64,000 nucleotides of DNA, from assembly GCF_900143005.1 (NCBI RefSeq), contig NZ_FRCS01000003.1:124001-188000 (forward strand), given 5' to 3'. A program made the translations under genes and the position numbers. Source of the DNA: Cryptosporangium aurantiacum. Its GTDB lineage: Bacteria > Actinomycetota > Actinomycetes > Mycobacteriales > Cryptosporangiaceae. The notes beneath the pieces are model-generated. The model worked only from the letters and a program-made list of their open reading frames with translations. It made no database searches and was not told the DNA's origin. Positions 41,590 through 47,802 of this stretch are shown piece by piece (position 1 is the first letter of the stretch; each line of letters starts with the position of its first letter).

Positions 41590-43431
41590 ATGGGCGGATA
41601 CCTGATCGCGTTGCGCATGGGAGCGCTCCCGGGCGAGGATTTGATTCATGGCCTACTGGAAGGGCGCTCCGCGCCTCGTGGAGTGAACGGCCCGGAGTGG
41701 TTGGAAGCAGGCATCGTCTCGGGTGACGTTCTGGTCGTCGGTAGCGACGCACGCGAACACATCCTCCACTTTGTTCGGGCCGACCGGGACGGGCTGATGA
41801 CCCGTCGCCTGCTGAGCTTCACCACCGACCGTCGCGCATCGGTGCGCCGGACGATCTTCGAGTTGCTGGACCAGTTGTGGGGCCGGGACTCCGGCTGGCC
41901 CCTGGTCGCGGACGCCGCCGAGCCGGCTCTGCGCGACGTGGACGCGGTGGTGCGGCGCGCCGCGGCGACACTGCTGGTGAACACCGCGGAACCGGATCGG
42001 GCCATGGCGGCGTTGTGCGCCTCGACCGATCCGGTCGTCCGGATCGCCCTCATGGACGCGATGCCCTGGCACAGGGTCGCCGGGCGGCAAGCCATCCTGC
42101 AACGCCTGCAGTCAGATCCCGTTCCGGCTATCCGGCTGCTGGCCAACGTCGCCACGCTCAGCGAAGACGACCCGGCGGCCTGGCCGGCGCTGGACGCGGC
42201 GATCCGTGCCGATCTCGACGCCTCCGCCGCTGTCCTGGACGTGCCGGGATCCCGCCTTCAGACGGCAGGCCGGCTCTGGGCCCGGGCGTTGATCCGCCTC
42301 GACCGGGAGGACGACTGCTGCTCCTGGGCGCGACGGCTGGCGAAGCCGGGCGAAGGTCCGCAGGTCCGGCTCGAAGGCGTACGGCTGGCGGTTGCGGCGA
42401 TGCGTGAGTGGCGGGCTGCGCCCGGCCGGGTGACGCCGATACTGACCGGCACGCTGGGGGAAGGGCCGTCCGAGGTGCGGTCTGCGGCGCTGAACGCGTT
42501 GGCGGCATCGTTGACGGCGTCCCGGCTGGCCGCCGACGACCTCGCGACGGTGATGGACGACCCTGAGCTCGGGGCGGTGGCCGCCACCGCGCTGGGTAGC
42601 GTCGGCGACCACCGGGCGGTGCCGTCTCTCGTGCGGCTGATGCTCTCCGACAGCGACGAGCCCCGCTTGGCCGAGGCGTTCAGGGCGGTTGCGCGGGCAG
42701 ATGCTGATCCGGGTGCGCCGGTGACCGCCGCCCGGCAAATGTTGGCCGCGCATCCGGACTCCTGCGCTCCGGACCTGCCGATGCAAGTGCTTGCCGCGTT
42801 CGGCCCGGCTGCGGCCACCGCGTTGCCGGAGCTGATCGCCAGGCTCCGGGGAGCCGAGAACGACACTCCGGACTGGGCGTTCTACGTCTTGGGACGGATC
42901 GGCCCAGCCGCCGCAGCCGCAGTCCCCGAGCTACGCCAATATCGGGCCCAAGGCGCGACGTTGGCTCTTCTCCGGGTGACCTCGGACCGGGAGGTGGCCG
43001 AGCGGTATCTCGCCGGCCGCCCGGACGAACCTCACCGTGGCCGCTTCGAATCGGAGCTGCTGACGTGGCTCGCCGAGCACGGCGGGCTCACCGTCCGCCA
43101 GCACAAACAGGTGCGGAGTCTGTTCCGGGCTCCCGGATTCGAGGAGGTGGAATCGGCCCGCGCGCTCTGGCTGCACGAAGGGCCCGCGGTAGCCCCCGAA
43201 CTACTGGAGGTTTTGCCGAAGTACCTGTCCGACGACCGGTACGCGGCCAAGGCGCTGCGGGTATTGGCTGCGATGAGGCCGCATGCGCGCCCTGTACTCG
43301 ACCAGCTGGATCAACTCGTGTCCTCGCGGCATCGGATCCGATTTAACATCGCCGACCTCGATGCCCAGATGCGCGCGGACGAGATGCTGCTCGCCGCGAC
43401 GCTCGCCGCCCGAAATCAAATCGCCGGATGA
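41590..43431 (+). CDS. HEAT-repeat protein (start possibly frameshifted)
   Basis: A long alpha-solenoid of about 600 residues, made of HEAT-like helix pairs (for example VVRIALMDAMPW, AVAATALGSVGDHRAVPSLVRLM, ATALPELIARL), with no other domain and no signal peptide. The frame is open from ATG 41590, but the more natural start is ATG 41648, which follows GCGAGGA and reads MAYWKGAPRLVE; one base added near 41684 would join it to WNGPEWLEAGIVSGDVL. HEAT proteins are scaffolds; its end is 31 bp from the convergent radical SAM gene, but no shared transcript is implied. Confidence 0.8.
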   Translation: MGGYLIALRMGALPGEDLIHGLLEGRSAPRGVNGPEWLEAGIVSGDVLVVGSDAREHILHFVRADRDGLMTRRLLSFTTDRRASVRRTIFELLDQLWGRDSGWPLVADAAEPALRDVDAVVRRAAATLLVNTAEPDRAMAALCASTDPVVRIALMDAMPWHRVAGRQAILQRLQSDPVPAIRLLANVATLSEDDPAAWPALDAAIRADLDASAAVLDVPGSRLQTAGRLWARALIRLDREDDCCSWARRLAKPGEGPQVRLEGVRLAVAAMREWRAAPGRVTPILTGTLGEGPSEVRSAALNALAASLTASRLAADDLATVMDDPELGAVAATALGSVGDHRAVPSLVRLMLSDSDEPRLAEAFRAVARADADPGAPVTAARQMLAAHPDSCAPDLPMQVLAAFGPAAATALPELIARLRGAENDTPDWAFYVLGRIGPAAAAAVPELRQYRAQGATLALLRVTSDREVAERYLAGRPDEPHRGRFESELLTWLAEHGGLTVRQHKQVRSLFRAPGFEEVESARALWLHEGPAVAPELLEVLPKYLSDDRYAAKALRVLAAMRPHARPVLDQLDQLVSSRHRIRFNIADLDAQMRADEMLLAATLAARNQIAG

Positions 43432-43462: not shown

Positions 43463-44725
43463 TCAGGTGTGTTCGAGGACGTTCTCGGCGACGCGGTGGA
43501 TGATATGGGTGATCAGGACGGTGAGATCCGCGCAGTAAACGGATGGATTGCGATATCCGACTCCAGTTTTGTACCGGTGCGCGTAGAGCCCACCACCGCA
43601 GATATCGCGGAGGGGACAGGCATTGCAGGTCTCGCAGAGCGCGGCTGCGCCGATCTGGCGGGCGACGACACCGGGATGTAGCAGCAGGCTGTCGAGCGGA
43701 TCGCGGGAGACGTGGTGGCCGGTGCTTGCGGCTCCGTTGAAGGCCGACTTGAGTTGATGGCAGAAGTCGACGGAGCCGTTGGTATCGATCGTGAGCGATT
43801 GAAAGGGAGCCAGCCCCACTGACTCCACTAGAGGCTGTCCACCCAGCACGAGACGGATGATCGCGTCGAACAAGCGAACCGTTATTGGCTGTGCTGGGGC
43901 GTCGTACCAGCGATCAAAAATCGGAATCAGCCAGTCGGCGTATGGGGTGGCACCTGAATTGCCGCCCCAGGCCGGCGGTGGCTGGCTCCAGTTGCCGTGT
44001 GGCAGCAGGAAGTCCAGCATGGGCGGCTGGTGGGCGATCAGCGCGTCATAGACCTCGATTGGATCGTTCGCCACGTCGACCGTGCACAGCATGCCGGCAA
44101 ACAGGTCGCGATACTCCGGAGTGCGCAGCGCGTCGAGGCCACGGACGACCGAATCGTAGCTGCCGCGTCCGTTGGCGTACTTCCGGTGCCGGTCGTGCGC
44201 CCCTTGGTCTCCATCCAGGCTGACGTAGGCGCGAATCCCGCAGTCCCGCATCAGCCGCAGGTTGTCGCAGTTCAGCAGCACCGCGTTCGTGGTCATGCGA
44301 ACGTCGAGTTCGATGCCGGGCGGGGTCTCGGCGCGGAACCGGGCGGTGAGGTAGGTGATCAGTTCGGGGCCGGCCATGAGCGGTTCCCCGCCGTGTAGCA
44401 CAACCTTCGCGACGCGAATATCGTCGGCGTGCATCCGCAGGTGTTCGCCGAACCGGATGGCCGCCTGGTCCACTGTGGTCTTCGACATGGTTGCCGGGTT
44501 TGCCTGCCAGCTGTCGTCCGCCATCTCGTAGACGTAGCAGTAATCGCACGACAGGTTGCACCTGCTGTGAACTTTGAGAACGAACTCGATAAACGGCCGG
44601 GGCTGCCACTGGGGATCGGCCAGCGCGGCATCGACGACGTCCTTGGCCGGCCACTCGGGACACTTGGCGCCTGCTGATGTGATCGACTCCAACCTCACCA
44701 GAGGAAGCTCTTTCACTTCGGCCAC
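43463..44725 (-). CDS. FxsB-like radical SAM/SPASM peptide maturase
   Basis: A 420-residue enzyme. The radical SAM cluster motif is C56-NLS-C60-DY-C63 (SRCNLSCDYCYVYE), with GGEPL for SAM binding. The C-terminal SPASM region (about 355-410) has CETCNACPLRDICGGGLYAHRY and NPSVYCADL, a pattern I know from FxsB-type enzymes, which join an aromatic side chain to the beta-carbon of a residue two positions on, giving a strained three-residue cyclophane. GTG 44725. It lies 126 bp behind a small Ala-rich gene ending in Phe-Ala-Asn on the same strand, its predicted substrate. Confidence 0.92.
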   Translation of the reverse strand: MAEVKELPLVRLESITSAGAKCPEWPAKDVVDAALADPQWQPRPFIEFVLKVHSRCNLSCDYCYVYEMADDSWQANPATMSKTTVDQAAIRFGEHLRMHADDIRVAKVVLHGGEPLMAGPELITYLTARFRAETPPGIELDVRMTTNAVLLNCDNLRLMRDCGIRAYVSLDGDQGAHDRHRKYANGRGSYDSVVRGLDALRTPEYRDLFAGMLCTVDVANDPIEVYDALIAHQPPMLDFLLPHGNWSQPPPAWGGNSGATPYADWLIPIFDRWYDAPAQPITVRLFDAIIRLVLGGQPLVESVGLAPFQSLTIDTNGSVDFCHQLKSAFNGAASTGHHVSRDPLDSLLLHPGVVARQIGAAALCETCNACPLRDICGGGLYAHRYKTGVGYRNPSVYCADLTVLITHIIHRVAENVLEHT

Positions 44726-44770
44726 CTTTGCGTAGTCCTCGTTTGCCCTGAACCTTGGCTCGCGTTGGAT

Positions 44771-44806
44771 GGCTGCGTGGTGTCAATGGCCAGTCACCAC
44801 GCAGCC
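44771..44806 (-). terminator. Strong hairpin between precursor and maturase genes
   Basis: A perfect 12-bp stem (44771-44782 with 44795-44806; GGCTGCGTGGTG) and a 12-base loop sit in the 126-bp gap. In RiPP operons such an intergenic hairpin often lets the precursor be made in excess over its enzyme by partial termination or mRNA protection. A small AGAAC-CA-GTTCT palindrome (44807-44818) adjoins it. Confidence 0.7.
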
Positions 44807-44851
44807 AGAACCAGTTCTGTTCTGAAGCCGGATGACTACTCAATCGTCGGA

Positions 44852-45034
44852 TCAGTTTGCGAACGAACCCGCCAGTGTCACGCCGCTATCGTGACTGTTG
44901 ACGCTTCCCACGATCGCATCGAGGGCGCTAGAGCCCGTGCCAGTCGCAGCGGTAAGCGCGGCCGCCGCAGCGGCTGTGGCGGCAGCAAGCGCTGCCGCCC
45001 GACGCAGAGAGTCCAGATTAGAGCTTTGTCGCAC
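44852..45034 (-). CDS. Putative triceptide (cyclophane RiPP) precursor peptide
   Basis: A 60-residue peptide. GTG 45034 has a strong ribosome-binding site, AGAAGGAGC, eight bases upstream. Residues 1-12 are polar (RQSSNLDSLRR), 13-31 almost pure Ala/Thr, then a Gly/Ser-rich stretch and the end VTLAGS-F58-A59-N60. The last three residues fit the aromatic-x-polar motif that three-residue-cyclophane radical SAM enzymes crosslink. Known Fxs precursors end F-x-S-x-x, so Phe at the third-last position and Asn in place of Ser differ. Ala-rich, low-complexity leaders are usual in this group. The next gene on the strand is the maturase. Confidence 0.75.
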   Translation of the reverse strand: MRQSSNLDSLRRAAALAAATAAAAAALTAATGTGSSALDAIVGSVNSHDSGVTLAGSFAN

Positions 45035-45575
45035 GTGGATGCTCCTTCTCGCCGAATTGGGTTAGGTCGAGAGCTTGCGATGTGCGTACGTCGAACCTGA
45101 TAGGTAGCTGCCGCAATGCGATGGTCTAGTGCGGTGTTGCCTACCGCAGCCGAATGCTTGCCTCTTGCGTGCCGTGGCCGATTCTGCGTGCCTTAGCCCT
45201 GGCCGCATCGTCGACGTTCCGGTAATCGCTCCGACGCTCTCAATGCCGTGCACATCAAGTCCAGATCGGAACCGGCGTGTCAAGGGTCATGCCGCATTTG
45301 ACCTTGTCCCGAGAATCGCTCACCGTGTGTCGGCTGACGAGCGATATACCTGCGCACCAGTAAACAATGACCGGATGCGAGCGTGTCGGGCTCACAGATC
45401 TCGCCGCCGGCTCACCAAGCCGAGCCCATGAGCGCCCAGCGCAAACGGGCTCGCAGACGCCACCTGGCCACCTGGAATCTGAGCTGTTGAAGACCCCCGG
45501 TATCGGCGCCCACCTTCATCTCGATCCGCAGGGCCGCCTCCGTATTCCCCTCGACGGCAACTGCTGGCACGCGGG
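45035..45575. other. Intergenic stretch upstream of the peptide gene
   Basis: No convincing gene. A plus-strand frame ending at 45579 has a good-looking end (IGAHLHLDPQGRLRIPLDG, then NCWHAG) with high third-position GC, and could be a small gene of up to 70 codons (45367-45579) without clear start. The promoter of the precursor gene must be on the minus strand near 45040-45130; I see no consensus element. Confidence 0.45.
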
Positions 45576-46028
45576 TTAGCGCAGCACGTCGGCTACCTTC
45601 TCAAGGCCGTCCCGGATCAGCCGCCCATAGTCATCGTCACCCAGCGCGCCGATCGTGTCGCGCGCCTGCTGAAGATGCTGACGAGCACGATCGAGATCGC
45701 CCAGCTTCCGATAGCACTCGCACAAGCTCAGGTGTAGCGACGGGTACAAGCCTGCGACCGACAGCGACACCCCGGCCTCTGCCAGGCGCGCATCGGTGAG
45801 CAGTTCGACTGCTTCCAACGCTCGCTGATCCCACAGAAGTTCTTCACGCACGTCATCCTGCGCATCAGCCATGGTGTGCGCGAGTGTGCACCGCTGGAGC
45901 GGATCCCCGCGCTCACGGCCGATCTCGTCCCAGAGCTCGCCGAGAAGACGACGTGCCGTCTCCCGCTCGCCCTGGTGATTGAGCTGCGCCGCGTCGCCGA
46001 TTCGGAGGAGCGTTGGATCCGTGATCAC
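45576..46028 (-). CDS. TPR-repeat protein
   Basis: A 150-residue helical protein with three to four tetratricopeptide-like helix pairs (AQLNHQGERETARRLLGEL, LHLSLCECYRKLGDLDRARQ, HLQQARDTIGALGDDDYG). Soluble. Starts at GTG 46028. Such proteins are common in actinomycetes as single genes and, with kinases or regulators, act as scaffolds. TPR proteins also occur near fxs-type RiPP genes, but the 541-bp gap argues against one operon. Confidence 0.8.
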   Translation of the reverse strand: MITDPTLLRIGDAAQLNHQGERETARRLLGELWDEIGRERGDPLQRCTLAHTMADAQDDVREELLWDQRALEAVELLTDARLAEAGVSLSVAGLYPSLHLSLCECYRKLGDLDRARQHLQQARDTIGALGDDDYGRLIRDGLEKVADVLR

Positions 46029-46983: not shown

Positions 46984-47380
46984 TTAGCCGGACGTTGAGC
47001 GGCGTCCCGACGGGCGGCGGCGAGGCTGTCGCACGGTGCTGGACTCCCGCACGACCAACTCCGGCTCGAAGACGAGATCGCGGTGCTCCCGCGTCCGGTC
47101 GGCCATCTCCTCGAGGAGGACGTGCACGGCGGCGCGGCCGATCTCGGTGGCCGGTTGGTGCACGCTGGTCAGCTCGACGGCGCTGGCCGCGCTAGCCAGG
47201 TCGGTGTCGTCGAAGCCGACCACCGCAAGATCGTCCGGGATGCGCAAGCCTGCGTCGGTCGCCACGCGAACGAGACCCACCGCGATCAAGGCGTTGGCGC
47301 AGAACACCGCCGTCGGTCGCTCCGCTGCATCGAGGGACAGGAGGTGAGCACCGGCGGCGATCCCATCGGTGATCAGCGAG
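46984..47380 (-). pseudogene. LacI-family regulator, C-terminal remnant
   Basis: The C-terminal third of a LacI-type regulator: LITDGIAAGAHLLSLDAAER, PTAVFCANALIAVGLVRVA, IPDDLAVVGFDDTDLA, LTSVHQPATEIGRAAVHVL and PELVVRESS. DNA-binding and most of the sugar-binding domain are missing. At its upstream edge (about 47380) the frame abuts a remnant of another gene, showing a deletion fusion. Non-functional. Confidence 0.82.
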
Positions 47381-47473
47381 GGCCTCCTCGCGCCACCGAG
47401 CCCGCGCCGCACGCGGCAGGAGCCGGGCCGCGACCGCGAGCAGGATCCGTAACGTCGGCTCGGAGGCGCTCAC
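47380..47473 (-). pseudogene. Truncated PadR-partner gene
   Basis: GTG 47473 overlaps the PadR stop (GTGA) and reads SASEPTLRILLAVAARLLP and then RAARARWREEALA before running into LacI-derived sequence. PadR genes are usually followed, with such an overlap, by a membrane-protein gene starting in this way; only about 30 codons remain. Confidence 0.6.
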
Positions 47474-47802
47474 GCCTCGGCCCCCGCGCTGCGCACCACC
47501 GACGCCCGGCCCGGCCGACGCCGACGCTCCTCGACCCGGGCGAGCGCGGTGCGCGCTTGCCGTGCTCCATCGGCGGTGAGGCGGTAGAAACGCCGGCGCG
47601 GGCGTCCTTCGGCCCGGGGATCGACGTCTTCCCACCGGCTGGTCACCCAGCCCGCGGTCTCCAACCTGGTGAGGATCGGGTAGATCGTGCCCGGCGGCAA
47701 GCCGGTGCCGTCGACCACCGCCAGGCCGTAGCGTTCCGCGTCGGGTTCGGCGAGGAGATCACGCAGCACGAGTTGTGTCTGCAGGGTCATCCGAGGGTCC
47801 AT
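47470..47802 (-). CDS. PadR-family transcriptional regulator
   Basis: A 110-residue winged-helix repressor (TLQTQLVLRDLLAEPDAERYG, quoted part; LPPGTIYPILTRLETAGWV; GRPRRRFYRLTADG). ATG 47802 is preceded at eight bases by CTATATAGA, a -10-like element (about 47812-47819), so the mRNA is probably leaderless and the site may also be the operator. Its usual downstream partner gene is truncated, so it may only regulate itself or a distant target. Confidence 0.92.
   Translation of the reverse strand: MDPRMTLQTQLVLRDLLAEPDAERYGLAVVDGTGLPPGTIYPILTRLETAGWVTSRWEDVDPRAEGRPRRRFYRLTADGARQARTALARVEERRRRPGRASVVRSAGAEA

Follow-up and report, generated by a model that had tools for sequence, protein, structure and literature searches.

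Fxs triceptides (TIGR04268/TIGR04269) are the described systems that come closest to the locus presented here. They combine an FxsB-type radical SAM maturase with a precursor gene directly upstream, whose product carries an aromatic-x-X3 core near its C-terminus. Excerpts from PMC11002830 describe several crosslinks of this class: XncB or OscB joins Phe C4 to the beta carbon of Asn, MscB forms a Phe-to-Ser link and YhhB a His-to-Arg link. ChlB, a cyclophane synthase whose structure was solved with the precursor leader (9gm3, 9gmc), is fused with a HExxH hydroxylase according to part of the text of PMC12636437. RiPP precursors bearing their own export signal are represented by MNIO RiPPs with Sec signals, bufferins among them; according to PMC12452194, precursors of bacterial RiPPs rarely have a Sec signal peptide, and bufferins are the only case in which Sec export was demonstrated in the native host. 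In a search of the open-licence literature, none of the papers listed for cyclophane, signal peptide and radical SAM together appeared to concern FxsB.

In a 64,000-nt stretch of Cryptosporangium aurantiacum DNA, referred to as the window, a maturase gene lies behind a small candidate precursor gene. The pair is like the Fxs triceptides in that the maturase scores above the family cut-off, the precursor gene is positioned directly upstream and an aromatic-x-X3 core stands near the C-terminus of the peptide. It is unlike them in that the peptide lacks the TIGR04268 leader, the F-x-S-x-x end and a tail and begins with an Ala-rich, signal-like N-terminus. We consider it probable, by a narrow measure, that the two genes form a triceptide locus of the FxsB type, a signal-bearing and tail-less variant with a crosslink between Phe58 and Asn60. 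The FxsB enzyme type is common; what is unusual about the peptide is the export-signal-like front and the proposed ring at its last residue.

The maturase gene (43463-44725; this and all following coordinates of the two genes and of the region between them refer to the minus strand) starts with GTG and encodes 420 aa. TIGR04269 (FxsB) matched the product with 446.3 bits, above the curated cut-off of 370. The YhhB model was the second-best NCBIfam model and stayed below its cut-off of 445 with 332.8 bits. The sequence contains the stretches CGGGLYAHRY and NPSVYCADL as well as the radical SAM cluster motif C56-x3-C60-x2-C63 (codons at 44537-44560), the three cysteines of which are invariant in all 175 other aligned FxsB enzymes. 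The C-terminal cysteine set is also present: C367, C370 and C376 are each shared by 173 of the 175 other enzymes and C398 by 165. MscB belongs to IPR026335, which we take to be the FxsB family. An AlphaFold2 model of the enzyme reached a mean pLDDT of 90.5, and the ChlB-leader complex 9gm3 was its top match in Foldseek (TM 0.85 by query length, 34% identity). Unlike ChlB with its hydroxylase, the window enzyme displayed Pfam matches to radical SAM and Fer4 only.

Upstream of the maturase gene and on the same strand, the candidate triceptide precursor gene (44852-45034) starts with GTG and encodes a peptide of 60 aa, MRQSSNLDSLRRAAALAAATAAAAAALTAATGTGSSALDAIVGSVNSHDSGVTLAGSFAN. A Shine-Dalgarno sequence, AAGGAG (45042-45047, minus strand), is located 7 nt before the start codon, the stop codon follows directly after N60 of the terminal GSFAN, and 126 nt separate the peptide stop from the enzyme start. 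Both strands of the 64-kb window together hold five ORFs of 45 to 90 aa with such a strong Shine-Dalgarno sequence, the window peptide included, which gives a rough estimate of 0.03 for the chance of one in any given 700 nt of one strand. An earlier interpretation of this DNA made from the letters alone (the sequence-only reading) had claimed an FxsB-like radical SAM/SPASM gene behind a 60-codon gene with a strong ribosome-binding site and a GSFAN end, and all of this was borne out by the profile scores, motifs and coordinates given above.

Profile searches left the peptide without a family. Nothing above curated cut-offs was obtained in NCBIfam (best E 0.03; 14.2 of 100 bits) or Pfam (best E 0.083; 13.9 of 25), and the best match in the PDB had an E of 0.77. 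TIGR04268, the FxSxx-COOH precursor model, did not match the peptide at E up to 10; its 17 matches in the genome at E up to 1, from 150 of 789 first-look candidates scored, all lie outside the window. Our own FxsA profile, built from 29 precursors, did not detect the peptide either. Elsewhere in the 64-kb window no FxsA-like ORF was found (best profile E 0.43), and the 60-codon ORF is therefore the only precursor candidate on hand. No close homolog of the peptide and enzyme pair was found. When the peptide, the gap and the enzyme were modelled as one read-through chain with AlphaFold2, the peptide part had a pLDDT of about 42 to 59, and we do not claim docking from this model.

The frame of the peptide gene has the best codon score of the six at its site. 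This score of -0.114 per codon compares with 0.06 to 0.23 in five other precursor genes, two of them from other genomes, on a codon table trained on six long genes (0.15 to 0.36). So low a value would fit a 60-codon ORF that is not the substrate, the maturase then being an orphan FxsB whose precursor is supplied in trans by another locus of the genome or has been lost. The failure of the FxsA profile to match the peptide points in the same direction, high-GC DNA easily yields Ala-rich ORFs, and 104 of 176 FxsB loci are without a profile-detected precursor nearby. The genome itself has four further FxsB genes on contigs C6, C2 and C1 (two places). Three of them are accompanied by FxsA-like peptides ending GFGNIP (L002), GFTSSL and AFSSAI, all likewise below the TIGR04268 cut-off, and the fourth (L004) has no clear precursor. 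Set against these points are the strong Shine-Dalgarno sequence, the correct strand and place, the aromatic-x-Asn end and a hairpin behind the stop codon, as at other loci of the signal type described below. On balance we regard a non-substrate ORF as unlikely, though it keeps appreciable weight, and infer that the 60-aa peptide is the substrate of the maturase.

The end of the peptide was compared with precursors beside other FxsB enzymes. The set comprised 176 unique enzymes, 63 of their loci from genomes of named species and the rest from further genomes. With the profile of 29 precursors and a threshold of E 0.02 or better, 74 ORFs were found in 72 of the 176 loci; this catalogue replaced an earlier one based on regular expressions (25 of 163 loci), which had missed the window peptide. 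Among 64 aligned precursors the core is FxS in 36, FxN in 22, FxA in 4, FxD in 1 and WxA in 1, that is F-x-S or F-x-N in 58; these counts omit 10 of the 74 ORFs that are gapped at the core column, L186, L192 and L194 among them. The FxN cores include an F-A-N example, the L106 precursor reading SGFAND, as well as the GFGNIP end at the paralogous locus L002 of the window's own genome; the L192 precursor ends with GFQN-COOH. F58-A59-N60 (codons at 44855-44863) fits this pattern of an aromatic residue and, two positions on, an X3 residue that has a beta carbon, and a maturase gene of the matching class, FxsB, lies downstream.

F58 is the sole Phe, Tyr or Trp of the peptide, and F-x-N cores occur beside FxsB homologs; the earlier suggestion that the last three residues are the likely crosslink site is thus upheld as a prediction. 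The sequence-only reading had also regarded F-x-N as a departure from Fxs and a pointer to Grr. That link falls because F-x-N is ordinary in the FxsB group (22 of 64 cores) and the window enzyme is far from GrrM/OscB, with 78.2 bits at a cut-off of 310. The F-x-N crosslink itself is known for OscB from excerpts of PMC11002830; unlike Grr precursors, the window precursor is not Gly-rich, and kinship with Grr was rejected. The conservation that had been expected of the peptide near FxsB homologs was found in kind and not in sequence, as both TIGR04268 and our FxsA profile miss the peptide and no close homolog of the pair was found.

Three features that the sequence-only reading had overlooked set the window peptide apart: the tail-less motif, the signal-like leader and the hairpin between the genes. 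All 64 aligned FxsB precursors carry a tail of at least 2 residues behind the core motif, compared with 0 in the window peptide, which ends in F-A-N where F-x-S-x-x is absent. Ends of the type aromatic-or-His-x-X3 are not enriched ahead of FxsB genes at large; at 150 loci they were seen in 4 of 76 strong Shine-Dalgarno ORFs in sense and in 1 of 49 in antisense orientation. The other crosslink candidate within the peptide is H48. H48-D49-S50 fits the pattern aromatic-or-His-x-Ser, and crosslinks through His have been described for HaaB, ScaB and YhhB in the excerpts of PMC11002830. A ring at His48-Asp49-Ser50 in place of Phe58-Asn60 nevertheless seems very improbable to us, as the cores of FxsB precursors are close to the C-terminus and often preceded by an AG step, which the window peptide shows as LAG-S-F. 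We therefore keep Phe58-Asn60 as the proposed site.

Signal-like N-termini are present at seven FxsB loci, the window, L084, L168, L186, L192, L194 and L215 (L numbers denote loci of our collection), labels that were assigned by eye and hydropathy before the hairpin test. Further hydropathy hits, L002, L092, L146 and L151 among them, were not counted because they resemble normal FxsA leaders, fragments of other genes or chance hits, and the same applies to an Ala-rich ORF near L206. Codons 1-32 of the window gene (44939-45034), about the N-terminal half, encode a basic start (R2, R11, R12) followed by an Ala-rich hydrophobic stretch that looks signal-peptide-like by hydropathy and profile, whereas the usual FxsA leader is acidic. 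In L168, L186 and L215 a start of basic, hydrophobic and small residues, as in Sec signals, precedes a normal FxsA leader; the cores of these precursors are FTSVAPRL, FQSVSPQ and FSNAPPR, respectively, and the L168 precursor has a second copy without enzyme in the same genome (L179/L222). The best 16-residue hydropathy of the window peptide is 1.74, in a stretch that is nearly pure Ala/Thr, and no clear signal peptidase site is visible by eye. These properties would also suit a divergent leader helix in a peptide that is crosslinked as proposed and stays inside the cell or leaves it by another route. With the Sec-like starts ahead of normal FxsA leaders at L168, L186 and L215 in view, we hold this reading to be quite improbable and prefer a putative export signal.

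Tail-less ends of the type aromatic-or-His-x-X3-COOH recur in four of the seven signal-type peptides: SFAN in the window, RHNR in L084 from Nonomuraea longispora (LAGRHNR), GFQN in L192 (HHGFQN) and AHGS in L194 (GFAAHGS). Position -3 is aromatic or His in 4 of 7 signal-type peptides versus 4 of 69 other profile-found ORFs. RHNR, GFQN and SFAN have chemical precedent, because the His-to-Arg link of YhhB, the kind required for the HNR end of L084, and the Phe-to-Asn link of XncB or OscB are described in the excerpts of PMC11002830.

The L192 and L194 peptides are identical in 51 of the first 74 residues and in 2 of the last 16. Between them the very end changes from Phe-x-Asn to His-x-Ser, with Phe or His kept at -3. 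Their dN/dS was 0.19/0.37 in the leader and 0.31/0.38 in the whole ORF, and the differences between the two genes are spread evenly over the codon positions (24, 24 and 23). On account of the whole-ORF values and this even spread, the sign of selection at the protein level appears modest, with purifying selection visible in the leader only.

A profile of seven other signal-type peptides (six loci and the L179 copy) scored the window peptide with 6.2 bits, a value reached by 31 of 3000 shuffles. The C-terminal half of the peptide was matched equally well by 1563 of 3000 shuffles, or 2342 of 3000 when L084 was omitted, in a test weakened because the L192 and L194 rows of the profile were trimmed at a motif that comes before the one used for the others. 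In a pairwise comparison with L084 the full score was reached by 1528 of 5000 shuffles and the C-terminal score by 295 of 5000; with these scores not beyond shuffles and an empty BLASTP result, direct homology of the two peptides was rejected. From the chance-level C-terminal part and the non-significant L084 comparison it follows that a relationship between the window peptide and the signal-type group is likely but weak. The variant group of seven loci is more secure than the place of the window in it. Peptides of the signal type are rare, and few loci underlie the group, as searches returned the source and little else: the source and two weak matches for L084 in 54 genomes of the genus of its genome (G901), the source, a second copy with 91% identity and four weak matches for L168 in 200 genomes of the family, and the source only for L194 and L192 in 6 and 160 genomes of their respective genera.

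Folding of the 126-nt gap between precursor and maturase gene gave -49.3 kcal/mol (z -4.06), and none of 200 shuffles was as stable. This low energy is largely due to a perfect 13-bp hairpin with a 12-nt loop at 44770-44807, detected by gap folding and a stem scan. Stems differing in sequence follow the precursor stop at the other signal-type loci as well, with 13 bp in L168, 14 bp in L215, 11 bp in L192, 9 bp in L084, 8 bp in L186 and 7 bp in L194. A hairpin of at least 9 bp within 80 nt of the precursor stop, a threshold set after the first hairpins were seen, was counted at 5 of the 7 signal-type loci and at 4 of the 65 others (Fisher 1.7e-4, or 9.8e-4 when the window is excluded). Wider limits raised the number for the other loci to 5 of 65 at 100 nt and 6 of 65 at 130 nt. 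At L222 (6183-6416, minus strand, genome G797) the second signal-type precursor and the hairpin are kept and the FxsB frame is lost after about 16 codons, with no FxsB found in the 13 kb there. L222, by its sequence, looks like a decayed copy of a signal-type locus, and because it retains precursor and hairpin without the enzyme, the hairpin goes with the precursor. We infer that the hairpin is an attenuator or processing site favouring precursor over enzyme.

An enzyme tree was calculated with 174 rows, two of the 176 enzymes (among L026, L085 and L088) being left out. The seven signal-type rows account for 3 changes on this tree, compared with a mean of 6.9 after shuffling, and none of 500 shuffles was as low. 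L084, L192 and L194 form a clade (SH-aLRT 99 with 174 rows, 100/99 with 39 rows) that spans two families (f31 and f15) and unites Ala-rich leaders with the tail-less ends HNR, FQN and HGS. The window enzyme was placed beside L186 and L187 on the 174-row tree (SH-aLRT 96) and elsewhere on the 39-row tree; grouping it with L084, L192 and L194 was not rejected by an AU test on 39 hand-chosen rows (p-AU 0.236), and its position is unstable. Among the enzymes found, that of L186 is the closest relative (486 bits). The sole candidate precursor at L187 is weak (E 0.14), lies on the opposite strand and is not signal-like.

The branch of the window enzyme is long (0.86 to 1.02), and several conserved residues are changed. 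Position 145, Gln in all 175 other enzymes, is Thr, which makes Q145T unique among the 176. Position 323, Asp in 170 of the 175, is His, a residue found there in no other row, and is Cys in the enzymes of the signal-type loci L168 and L215. Asn replaces the Asp that 165 of the 175 others have at position 316. C364 is common to the enzymes of the four tail-less cases, the window, L084, L192 and L194, and also occurs in 29 of 172 other rows. The substitutions may be marks of an altered substrate end or of decay, and Q145T and D323H may reflect altered or lost activity. A drifting copy with impaired chemistry in a decaying locus would account for the long branch and for the two singular residues, and a decayed locus of the signal type does exist elsewhere in L222. 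We give this explanation a low probability in view of the open frame, the retained cluster cysteines and the confident structure model; moreover, over 93 columns conserved to at least 90% (150 rows) the window enzyme departs at 5, where the median is 2 and the largest number 27.

The scan of the neighbourhood covered ten ORFs, from 37.5 to 50.6 kb. They comprise a HEAT-repeat gene (41590-43431) converging on the maturase gene, a TPR gene (45576-46028), a dicarboxylate symporter, a LysR regulator, an isocitrate/isopropylmalate-type dehydrogenase, a GAF/PAS histidine kinase, a PadR-like and a LacI-like piece and two ORFs without match. The LacI-like ORF (46984-47412, minus strand, 142 aa) consists of a LacI-type sugar-binding domain without the DNA-binding part and looks truncated; the PadR-like regulator (47470-47802, minus strand) is encoded near it.

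For the triceptide locus proposed here, the following course of events can be envisaged. The 60-aa precursor would be made first, and the hairpin that follows its stop codon probably reduces transcription continuing into the maturase gene or sets processing ahead of it. The radical SAM cluster of the FxsB-type enzyme would then abstract a hydrogen at C-beta of Asn60, the C-terminal residue, and joining of this carbon to the ring of Phe58 would give a three-residue cyclophane at the extreme C-terminus with a mass change of -2 Da. The Ala-rich, basic-led N-terminus would act as a Sec or Tat signal, through which the ringed peptide might be exported and then cut by general machinery. The ten neighbouring ORFs include no gene for a peptide exporter or a peptidase, and export and cutting by general machinery would explain this absence. 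A precursor with its own export signal would be shared with bufferins and other MNIO RiPPs (PMC12452194); these differ in enzyme class and chemistry (MNIO enzymes, mostly acting on Cys).

More tentatively, and short of calling it probable, we propose a scattered group of FxsB triceptides that carry their own Sec or Tat signal and the hairpin, part of them with a cyclophane at the last residue. The window would belong to this group, and the active-site region of its maturase would be changed to accommodate a free C-terminal carboxylate. If these proposals are true, self-exporting cyclophane peptides would arise from two genes alone, and export of a radical-SAM RiPP would be testable with one precursor and one enzyme. 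A cyclophane at the C-terminal residue would broaden the substrate rules of FxsB, and the recurring hairpin would provide a handle for tiny precursor genes that are missed by profiles.

Some FxsB loci of the collection encode several precursors or cores. L007 (genome G001), from the same genus as the window, displays five tandem precursor-like ORFs of 43 aa before one FxsB, each with a Shine-Dalgarno sequence. Relative to the point where the enzyme match begins, their stops are located at -658, -511, -363, -206 and -58, and they end with AFTSFA, GFNSFL, GFGNFV, AFGSFV and AWSSFI. At the loci L037, L009 and L006 of Nocardia-type genomes, two to three core repeats of GNFNSFI or GNFSSFI stand within a single precursor, and at L150 one FxsB is preceded by three precursor ORFs with the cores FDNNV, FDNKM and FTNHV.
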